NCBI RefSeq assembly: GCF_003259185.1
Contig: NZ_QGMP01000001.1
Coordinates: 1,736,001 to 1,800,000, forward strand
DNA from: Isoalcanivorax indicus
Lineage (GTDB): Bacteria > Pseudomonadota > Gammaproteobacteria > Pseudomonadales > Alcanivoracaceae
Direction of reading: 5' to 3'
Length of the DNA stretch: 64,000 nt
In this document: positions 27,175 through 29,807 of the stretch, in pieces
How positions within the stretch are numbered: position 1 is the first letter of the stretch
Layout: each line of letters opens with the position of its first letter
Position numbers and translations under genes: made by a program
The notes under the pieces: model-generated
Database searches by the model: none
Seen by the model: only the letters and a program-made list of their open reading frames with translations
Told to the model about the DNA's origin: nothing

Positions 27175-28173
27175 CTACAGTGTCTTGCCGATCAGCCCGG
27201 GTACGTTGCGACGTGCTTCCAGCAACGCCACTTCCAGCGCCGCAGTAAAGCCCTCCACACCGGCCCCGCCATGGCTTTTCACCACGACACCATTGAGACC
27301 GACCAGACTGGCGCCGTTGTAGCGCTCCGGATCCAGACGGCCTTTCAGGCCTTTCAATACCGGTAACGCGAGCAGTCCGGACAGCTTCTTCAGCCAGCTG
27401 CGGCCGACTTCCTCGCGGATCATATGGCTGATCATGGACGCCACCCCTTCCATGGTTTTCAGCGCCACATTGCCGACAAAACCATCGCACACCACCACAT
27501 CGGCCTCGCCGGCAAAAATACCGTTGCCTTCTATATAGCCGATGTAATGGAGTTGAGGGTGGGCCTGCAACAGACGCGCGGCCTGCTTGATCTGCTCACT
27601 GCCCTTGATGTCTTCCTCGCCGATATTCAACAGCGCCACACGCGGCTGTTCGACGCCATCCACCGCCCGCACCACGGCCGCGCCCATCAGGGCGAACTGC
27701 AACAGATGCTCGGGTTCGGAATCCACGTTGGCGCCGAGATCCAGCATATGGCAATGCCCGGTGCGCGTGGGAATGGCGGTACAGATAGCAGGACGATCAA
27801 CACCGGGCAACGTTTTCAGCACAAAGCGGCTGACCGCCATCAGGGCGCCGGTATTGCCAGCGCTGACGGCGGCCTGGGCCTGACCGTCACGCACCTGGTT
27901 GATGGCCACACGCATGGAGGAGTCGCGCTTGCCACGCAACGCCACCGTGATCGGGTCTTCCATGGTCACGACTTCGCTGGCCGCCACCAGGGACAGACGG
28001 GGATGATTGTCCAGCCCGGCCTTCTTCAGGGCCGCAGCCAACGTATCCGGCTGCCCCACCATCAGCACGGCTACTTCTTCATGACGACGTAGCAGCTCTG
28101 CCACTGCAGGGACAGTCACCGGTAAACCGGCATCACCGCCCATGGCATCCACCGCCAGGGTCAACTGGGCCAT
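27175..28173 (-). CDS. plsX: Phosphate acyltransferase PlsX
   Basis: A 332-residue enzyme that forms acyl-phosphate from acyl-ACP for phospholipid synthesis. It starts LTLAVDAMGGDAG and shows SAGNTGALM, LDLGANVD, NIGEEDIKGSE and VVCDGFVGNVALKTMEG, all family signatures. It lies between rpmF and fabD as usual. A terminator after rpmF precedes it, so part of the fab operon message may start close to plsX. Confidence 0.95.
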   Translation of the reverse strand: MAQLTLAVDAMGGDAGLPVTVPAVAELLRRHEEVAVLMVGQPDTLAAALKKAGLDNHPRLSLVAASEVVTMEDPITVALRGKRDSSMRVAINQVRDGQAQAAVSAGNTGALMAVSRFVLKTLPGVDRPAICTAIPTRTGHCHMLDLGANVDSEPEHLLQFALMGAAVVRAVDGVEQPRVALLNIGEEDIKGSEQIKQAARLLQAHPQLHYIGYIEGNGIFAGEADVVVCDGFVGNVALKTMEGVASMISHMIREEVGRSWLKKLSGLLALPVLKGLKGRLDPERYNGASLVGLNGVVVKSHGGAGVEGFTAALEVALLEARRNVPGLIGKTL

Positions 28174-28254
28174 GTCACAGCCTCTCTGGTCTGGTTTTCA
28201 AGCCCGCAAAGGATGGAACAGCGGCGCCACATTGGCAAAGAAAAAAATGTGCAC

Positions 28255-28284
28255 AAATAAAAACGGGAGCCGCAGCTCCCGTTT
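28255..28284 (-). terminator. Hairpin terminator downstream of rpmF
   Basis: AAACGGGAGC (28261-28270) and GCTCCCGTTT (28275-28284) form a 10-bp stem with a CGCA loop; on the minus strand it is followed by a T-rich tract. It separates yceD-rpmF from plsX-fab, probably as a partial terminator. Confidence 0.8.
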
Positions 28285-28298
28285 CTTCTTGCCTGGTG

Positions 28299-28490
28299 TT
28301 ACTCGTCTTCGTCGGTATCGACGCTGGCGATCACCTGGCGGCCACGGTAGTAGCCGTCCGGCGAGATGTGGTGACGACGATGTACCTCACCGGTGTTGCT
28401 GTCTTCGGTCAGGGTCGGCGCGCTCAGGGCATCGTGCGAACGACGCATGTCGCGCTTGGAACGGGTTTTACGGTTCTGTTGAACTGCCAT
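28299..28490 (-). CDS. rpmF: 50S ribosomal protein L32
   Basis: A 63-residue basic protein beginning [19 protein letters not shown] and containing the [17 protein letters not shown] core of L32. It has the zinc-free form (no CxxC pair) and a short acidic tail. It follows yceD by 26 bp in the conserved yceD-rpmF-plsX order. Confidence 0.97.
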
Positions 28491-28516
28491 GATCGGCTCC
28501 TGTCATGCAAAGCGTT

Positions 28517-29041
28517 TTACTTCTGGCTTCCTTTGAGGCTCGCCAGAACAGCAAAGGGGTTATCCGCTTTCCCGGCACTCGCGTTGTCCTCGGGTTCATC
28601 ACCCTCGGGCAGGCGTGTGGGGCATTGCTCGTGCGTGGCCACCAGCGGCAGGGCCAACAGCAATTCCTCTTCCAGCAACGTCGCCAGCGGCATCTTGTCG
28701 TCGGTGACGAGCCAGGGATCGTAGCGCTCAGGAAGCGCCTGAATCTCCTCCTCGCTCCAGACCAATGCCAGCATGACCTCTGCGGTGACCGTGCAGGAGA
28801 CCGGCTCAAGGCAGCGCTGGCAGGTCATCACCAGTTCGGTGGACACCGTGCCGTGGACAATGCGCTGACCATCATCGGCGTCCCGCTCAAAGGTGAGCGC
28901 CACCCCGACCGGCTGCGACTGACTGTGCTCGAAATCACCCAGTCTTGGCAGTGCGGAAACGGTGGTCTGGCCACTGATGAGGCCGCCCTGGTCCGCCAGC
29001 TTGCGCGGCTCGACGTAGTGCGGCAATTGCCCTGAAAACAT
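28517..29041 (-). CDS. yceD: 23S rRNA accumulation protein YceD (DUF177)
   Basis: A 174-residue protein with the DUF177 signature: TCQRCLEP in the middle, an acidic central part, and the ending ADNPFAVLASLKG as in E. coli YceD. In E. coli and plants it supports 23S rRNA accumulation. The start (MFSGQLPHYVEPRKLADQGG) lines up with the E. coli N-terminus, so the ATG at 29041 is likely correct, although it lies only nine bases past an almost perfect promoter. Confidence 0.92.
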   Translation of the reverse strand: MFSGQLPHYVEPRKLADQGGLISGQTTVSALPRLGDFEHSQSQPVGVALTFERDADDGQRIVHGTVSTELVMTCQRCLEPVSCTVTAEVMLALVWSEEEIQALPERYDPWLVTDDKMPLATLLEEELLLALPLVATHEQCPTRLPEGDEPEDNASAGKADNPFAVLASLKGSQK

Positions 29042-29050
29042 AAGCGCGCA

Positions 29051-29079
29051 ATTCTAGGGCCGTGGCCGCCCCCTGTCAA
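29051..29079 (-). promoter_or_regulatory. Near-consensus promoter of yceD-rpmF
   Basis: On the minus strand TTGACA (29074-29079), a 17-bp spacer and TAGAAT (29051-29056). The expected transcription start (about 29044-29042) is zero to three bases from the yceD ATG. Confidence 0.8.
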
Positions 29080-29146
29080 AGCGTTATTGAAAAGCTAACC
29101 CTTTGAAGGAAAAGGGGTTTCCCGTGCGCCGCGAAAAGAGTGCCCG

Positions 29147-29152
29147 TATAAT
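29147..29152 (+). promoter_or_regulatory. Candidate -10 element upstream of maf
   Basis: A perfect TATAAT lies 46 bp before the maf ATG at 29199. No good -35 is seen at 16-18 bp, so the call is weak. Confidence 0.35.
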
Positions 29153-29198
29153 GGCCGCACAGAGCAGAAACCGACCCGAAAACCGCCCCGGAGACACC

Positions 29199-29807
29199 AT
29201 GTCCAGCGCCCCCGACCGCGAGCCCATGCCCCTCGTCCTGGCCTCCTCCTCCCCCTTCCGCCGCAGCCTGCTGGAGCGGCTCGGGCTGGCCTTCAGCTGT
29301 GACAGCCCGGACATCAACGAGCAGGCGCAGCCCGGCGAGACACCACAGCAGCTGGTGTTACGCCTGGCCCGGGAAAAGGCCCATGCGGTGGCAGCCCGCC
29401 ATCCCGACGCCCTGATCATCGGCTCGGACCAGGTTGCCGTCACGCCCGAGGGCCAGGTACTGGGCAAGCCTGGAGGCCGCGAGGCCGCCATCGAGCAGTT
29501 GCGCGCCAGCAGCGGTCGCAGCGTCACCTTTCTGACCGGCCTGTGCCTGCTGAACGCCGCCAGCGGTCGCCACCAGAGCGGCTGCGAACGCTTCCAGGTG
29601 CATTTTCGCACGCTGCGGGATGCAGTTATCGAGCGCTACGTGGATAGCGAGAAGCCCTTCAATTGTGCCGGGAGCTTCAAGTCGGAAGGCCTGGGGATCG
29701 TGCTGTTCAAGGCGCTGGAGGGGCGCGATCCCAACGCCCTGATCGGCCTGCCGCTGATCATGCTGACCGATTTTCTGGCGGCCGAAGGCGTTACCCTTCC
29801 CCTGTAA
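29199..29807 (+). CDS. maf: Maf-family nucleotide pyrophosphatase (YceF type)
   Basis: A 202-residue Maf protein with LASSSPFRRSLLERLGL at the N-terminus, LIIGSDQVA (catalytic Asp region), and FNCAGSFKSEGLG. Members next to yceD/rpmF are the YceF type, which hydrolyse m7GTP and related modified nucleotides and so act as house-cleaning enzymes. The ATG at 29199 has GGAG just upstream; an in-frame start at 29103 is possible but lacks a site. It is divergent from yceD. Its 3' end abuts the remains of the amidase 3' end and the 35-bp repeat. Confidence 0.9.
   Translation: MSSAPDREPMPLVLASSSPFRRSLLERLGLAFSCDSPDINEQAQPGETPQQLVLRLAREKAHAVAARHPDALIIGSDQVAVTPEGQVLGKPGGREAAIEQLRASSGRSVTFLTGLCLLNAASGRHQSGCERFQVHFRTLRDAVIERYVDSEKPFNCAGSFKSEGLGIVLFKALEGRDPNALIGLPLIMLTDFLAAEGVTLPL

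Follow-up and report, generated by a model that had tools for sequence, protein, structure and literature searches.

The yceD gene is very probably read, in most of the Gammaproteobacteria examined, from a leaderless mRNA with 0 to 4 nt before its AUG, produced by a sigma70 promoter that runs directly into the start codon. A leaderless yceD-rpmF message had been proposed in a first-pass annotation of one stretch of Isoalcanivorax indicus DNA (64,000 nucleotides, called the window below). This reading is supported both by the sequence and by its evolution, and it extends from the window to most of the class.

The elements concerned are collected in Table 1. Reading of the sequence confirmed that, as first claimed, a promoter of the form TTGACA-17 bp-TAGAAT ends nine bases before the yceD ATG. 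It scores 11/12 against the consensus and is the top promoter-like site between positions 27500 and 31000, a region where 6 such sites were found against 1.3 expected in shuffled sequences. All the elements expected of a sigma70 promoter (TTGACA, a spacer of 16–18 bp, a TATAAT-like hexamer) are present. When the whole 3.44-Mb genome was scanned for TTGACA-N16-18-TANNAT-N0-12-ATG, a single match was returned, that of yceD. The start codon is ATG, and not GUG or UUG, as looked for in a leaderless mRNA. No known RNA family was found over positions 28200–29400 at an E value of 1 or better. The hairpin predicted upstream of the promoter might shield it against read-through; terminator-like sites numbered 5 against 2.8 expected, which is not far above chance.

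Table 1. Features of the yceD region (window positions).
Feature	Position	Strand	Basis
-35 element TTGACA	29074..29079	minus	sequence read, promoter scan
17-bp spacer, sequence free to vary	29057..29073	minus	sequence read, family comparison
-10 element TAGAAT	29051..29056	minus	sequence read, promoter scan
GC-rich discriminator TGCGCGCTT, nine bases	29042..29050	minus	sequence read, position frequencies
yceD (DUF177) CDS; ATG 29041-29039 directly 3' of the promoter	28517..29041	minus	ORF, HMM
Predicted terminator-like hairpin just upstream of the -35, toward yceD	29099..29116	minus	consensus match alone
AGGAG Shine-Dalgarno of rpmF, second gene of the operon	28497..28501	minus	upstream sequence
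rpmF, ribosomal protein L32	28299..28490	minus	ORF; identity from sequence and place
plsX, phosphate acyltransferase, next downstream	27175..28173	minus	TIGR00182, E 2.8e-104
maf-type nucleotide pyrophosphatase gene, divergent neighbour, control gene	29199..29807	plus	TIGR00172, E 2.9e-52

Counted from the ATG at 29041, the yceD frame is 174 aa long. Its product matches PF02620 (E 1.6e-19, 71.6 bits, above the cut-off of 33.2), with rpmF adjoining. Against NF008395, the equivalog model for YceD, it reaches E 2e-25 and 89.8 bits, below the curated cut-off of 192; judged by these scores, it is a relative and not that equivalog. In E. coli, loss of yceD leads to less 23S rRNA (PMC5049393), and the gene is a multicopy suppressor in PMC7461557, its sole mention there.

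The position of the start codon deserves attention. The first-pass annotation had stated that the N-terminus aligns with that of E. coli YceD and that a downstream start is unlikely, and this held: the length from the Met to the LP motif is equal in E. coli (MQKVKLPLTLDP) and in the window (MFSGQLPHYVEP), and codon 6 is mostly CTG in the family. Codon 6 is one candidate for such a start, since in the window codons 3 to 6 read TCA GGG CAA TTG, so that a TTG lies behind CAGGG, a weak Shine-Dalgarno-like run. The message would then be transcribed from the same promoter and translated from a downstream codon, behind a short leader. We consider any such arrangement extremely improbable. The codon 6 start is ruled out, because CTG replaces TTG in most of the family, and the promoter-adjacent ATG is the annotated yceD start in E. 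coli. Moreover, in three loci (L063, L070 and L250) the N-terminus is longer by several codons, yet the extension begins at an ATG placed at the same distance from the promoter; the place of the yceD ATG thus follows the promoter and not the protein.

Conservation of the promoter-to-ATG distance in relatives had been named as a check. In each yceD locus, the highest-scoring sigma70-like promoter was sought in the 220 nt that precede a conserved residue, ignoring the start codon, and the distance was then taken from the -10 to the first in-frame ATG, loci being called fused when it was 8–10 nt. Promoter weights and anti-Shine-Dalgarno letters came from general knowledge, and the cut-offs (a score of 8, and −4.5 kcal/mol) were set by us. 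In the own family, 45 of 46 loci were scored (one was not long enough; in L024 the end of the contig cuts the locus); the rest of the order contributed 105 of its 181 other genomes with a match, and the rest of the class 109 of 179 genomes with a match plus 11 from another search. With the order and class loci chosen non-randomly (first the 30 best scores, next a choice by family, and finally a low-scoring tail), the distance was kept at 8–10 nt in 231 of the 270 gammaproteobacterial loci, and was exactly 9 in 198; the other 39 were not fused. By group, fused loci amounted to 45/45 in the own family, 91/105 in the rest of the order and 95/120 in the rest of the class, and at least one was found in 115 of the 139 GTDB families sampled. 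All 45 own-family loci have TTGACA, 17 bp, TAGAAT and a distance of 9, around a spacer whose sequence varies. E. coli K-12, outside the 270 counted, has TTGACT-17-TAATAT-GCGCGCCCT-ATG, again at a distance of 9.

Two controls bear on this figure. Dinucleotide-shuffled upstream DNA was fused in 12 cases out of 4200, which rules out a chance origin. A general feature of promoters at these loci is rejected because the divergent maf gene was fused in 0 of 59. Outside the Gammaproteobacteria, the layout was seen in 0 of 38 yceD loci scored, out of 39 (L429, with no HMM match, was left out). The best reading of these counts is a fused layout anciently conserved across the class. Its origin would date back to the base of the Gammaproteobacteria or earlier, with retention ever since, an age that belongs to the explanation which we hold, as a whole, to be highly probable.

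Could most of the yceD mRNA come instead from a promoter further upstream, with a leader devoid of Shine-Dalgarno, the fused promoter being secondary? Two promoters, yceDp1 and yceDp2, are named before yceD in E. coli (PMC13060810), so a second, longer transcript may exist there, and sraB lies upstream of yceD on the same strand. Such an arrangement gives no reason for the constant 8–10 nt distance, though, and the longer leader would likewise have no Shine-Dalgarno to serve it. No site in the 220 nt ahead of yceD scores higher than the fused promoter, at 11/12, and in the window the terminator-like hairpin stands between the upstream DNA and this promoter. We therefore regard a dominant upstream promoter as improbable, and retain transcription from the fused one.

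The block is specific to one gene. In a collection of about 85,000 species, its strict form was found in at least 117 stretches; 80 were fetched and all 80 lie before yceD, which was recognised by HMM in 78 and by eye in two (L208, truncated where the locus ends, and L242, with an apparent frameshift). In the latter, from Microbulbifer guangxiensis, the frame opened by the fused ATG stops after 14 codons, which looks like a frameshift or a sequencing error. One contig labelled Verrucomicrobiaceae (L198) carries the block with a yceD of gammaproteobacterial type, and is probably mis-binned. Of 194 genomes of the order, 86 have the block, once each except G206, where block and yceD are both present twice; the reversed control block was absent from all 194. 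A looser pattern, TTGACA-N16-18-TANNAT-N7-10-ATG, had matches in 46 of 56 order genomes. Among 29 loci obtained with it (L430–L458), 17 frames read as YceD by eye and the others were mostly very short, so no second recurrent gene using the block emerged. In two of these loci (L454 and L455, from two genomes of one family), a TTGACA/TATAAT promoter is followed by GCGCCCCAC and an ATG ahead of a frame of 8 aa; their promoters look like those of stable RNAs (tRNA or rRNA type).

Translation signals separate the two genes of the operon. A Shine-Dalgarno-like site, pairing with the anti-Shine-Dalgarno at the −4.5 kcal/mol cut-off, was found before yceD in 3 of 211 loci, in a 20-nt search upstream of fused starts that covers promoter DNA in any case, versus 88 of 89 before rpmF in the same loci. 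The absence of a Shine-Dalgarno that characterises leaderless mRNAs is thus observed at yceD. Since there is none, the ribosome would enter yceD at the 5'-terminal AUG by leaderless initiation, presumably as a 70S particle, and rpmF would be initiated on the same mRNA through its own Shine-Dalgarno. In 197 of 211 loci the yceD message is less folded over its first 40 nt than in internal stretches; the 5' AUG is more open than internal triplets in just 137 of 211, and slightly less open in the own genome. In the own family, codons 2 to 5 of yceD (TTT TCA GGG CAA, positions 29027–29038) have third bases that are better kept than those of most later codons, possibly because the 5' end of a leaderless message is constrained.

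Where would this message begin? RNA polymerase favours a pyrimidine-purine step, and starts usually 7–9 nt after the -10. At distance-9 loci these positions are nearly devoid of purines (0% in the own family; 4%, 1% and 0% at positions 7, 8 and 9 in 138 other loci), and 178 of 183 carry a T just before the ATG, so that the start dinucleotide is T/A. In the window, position 6 after the -10 is a G, and position 10, preceded by a T, is the A of the ATG. Because of this distribution of purines, the likely start is either G 29045, with a 4-nt leader, or A 29041, with no leader, hence a predicted leader of 0–4 nt. The first-pass annotation had placed the start at the ATG or within three bases of it; the fused layout agrees with this, and the predicted range has to be widened by one base, to 29045–29041. 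Leaderless genes are defined in PMC3293720 by a leader of 0–6 nt and no Shine-Dalgarno, and both predicted starts would fall within that definition.

The bases between the -10 and the ATG form a GC-rich discriminator. Over positions 1 to 8, the GC fraction is 0.76 for the own family (0.50 in its upstream DNA) and 0.80 for the 138 other loci (0.49 upstream), so that yceD shows the GC-rich discriminator expected of a promoter repressed by ppGpp/DksA. Such discriminators are described in strongly ppGpp-repressed genes (PMC3293720). By analogy with rRNA promoters, the GCGCGC run probably makes the yceD promoter sensitive to ppGpp and to growth rate.

Loci in which promoter and ATG part company are informative about what is being kept. 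Promoter and GCGCGC are still present in 11 of the 14 non-fused loci of the order, with the yceD start further down, and the discriminator is hence not kept for the ATG alone. Three of the displaced loci, from one family (L142–L144), have their yceD start 42–86 nt downstream, preceded by a Shine-Dalgarno-like run in L144 (GGGAGGTGGAG) and L143 (GAGG), and by a weak one in L142; several others, such as L173, L174 and L340, have no clear one. Two loci outside the class (L404 and L408) read TTGACC-16-GATAAT-GCGCGC, followed by a leader with GGAGG (GGAGGTAAGC) and an ATG 31–32 nt after the -10, a layout that could represent the ancestral state. In L068, L106 and L107, all from a single genus, the fused ATG opens a 5-codon ORF, MTTNP and a stop, and the yceD ATG lies 4–13 nt after that stop; this short frame is possibly a leaderless upstream ORF with re-initiation. 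In L112, TAG comes directly after the fused ATG. From these sequences, the promoter with its GC-rich discriminator and the start codon at the 5' end seem to be separable, the former being more widely kept.

These loci lend some weight to the idea that the block is maintained as a stringent-control promoter, and that the ATG adjoins it only after trimming of an ancestral leader, leaderless translation then being real but without a function of its own. The 11 order loci in which promoter and GCGCGC persist without the yceD ATG, and the two outgroup loci combining GCGCGC with a Shine-Dalgarno-bearing leader, speak for it. Against it, the 8–10 nt distance was held in 115 of 139 families though Shine-Dalgarno leaders arose in a few lineages and could spread if they were neutral, and the fused ATG has been retained in three genomes of one genus though it is no longer the yceD start. 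We give this idea a substantial minority share. It concerns the purpose and not the layout, and is compatible with the explanation that we favour, namely that a housekeeping sigma70-type RNA polymerase would transcribe yceD from a near-consensus promoter built onto the start codon, that transcription from 29045 or 29041 would leave 0–4 nt before the AUG, and that the GC-rich GCGCGC run would probably place yceD under ppGpp and growth-rate control.

As to purpose, the fused promoter-AUG might be a class-wide control device, by which YceD output tracks the balance of 70S ribosomes versus free subunits while L32 is made canonically, since it is intact 70S ribosomes that read leaderless mRNAs. We think this rather unlikely. 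If true, it would mean that the state of the ribosomes feeds back, in a conserved manner, on the assembly of the large subunit, YceD being needed for 23S rRNA accumulation.

The literature covered gave no earlier report. A search on yceD, rpmF or DUF177 with leaderless translation, covering text portions of papers, returned none, and a search including L32, plsX, PA2971 and yceD with ppGpp/DksA returned no statement on a leaderless yceD mRNA in the text it covered. In the part of PMC5230787 that deals with verified leaderless transcripts of E. coli, yceD does not appear; it is likewise unnamed in the main texts of PMC3160421, PMC4965119, PMC9031893, PMC8138138, PMC3415461, PMC3293720 and PMC3946193. 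The main text of the P. aeruginosa transcription start site paper (PMC3460626) contains neither leaderless nor PA2971, PA2970 or rpmF. PMC3896788 was ruled out as a report of leaderless yceD, "leaderless" referring there to tesA.

Leaderless mRNAs are a known kind, and yceD would stand out among them by how widely the layout is conserved and by which gene carries it. It is mostly 70S ribosomes that enter such mRNAs, at the 5' AUG, and they are described as rare in enterobacteria (PMC9031893), where their purpose is described as unclear (PMC9031893, PMC5230787). Genes of this kind (0–6 nt, no Shine-Dalgarno) number 16 and 17 in Salmonella (PMC3293720); the figure for E. coli is 18, and that for Klebsiella 10 (PMC3415461). 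A fused promoter and start in 115 of 139 families, and in E. coli, offers a clean test of that purpose in a laboratory strain. It would also connect leaderless initiation with a 23S rRNA-linked gene (PMC5049393) at the head of a ribosomal-protein operon. The E. coli rpmF operon (yceD-rpmF; Tanaka et al. 1989, cited in PMC5049393) has the same genes in the same order, with a promoter upstream of yceD. Like rRNA and stringent-control promoters, that of yceD has a GC-rich run directly after the -10; unlike them, its discriminator runs straight into the start codon. The leaderless mRNAs of E. coli and Salmonella (lambda cI, Tn1721 tetR, and the chromosomal lists from mapped start sites) share with yceD an AUG within 6 nt of the 5' end, predicted in the case of yceD, and the absence of a Shine-Dalgarno. 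They are said to be few in number and to have mixed functions, whereas yceD heads a ribosomal-protein operon, and its layout has been kept through most of a class.
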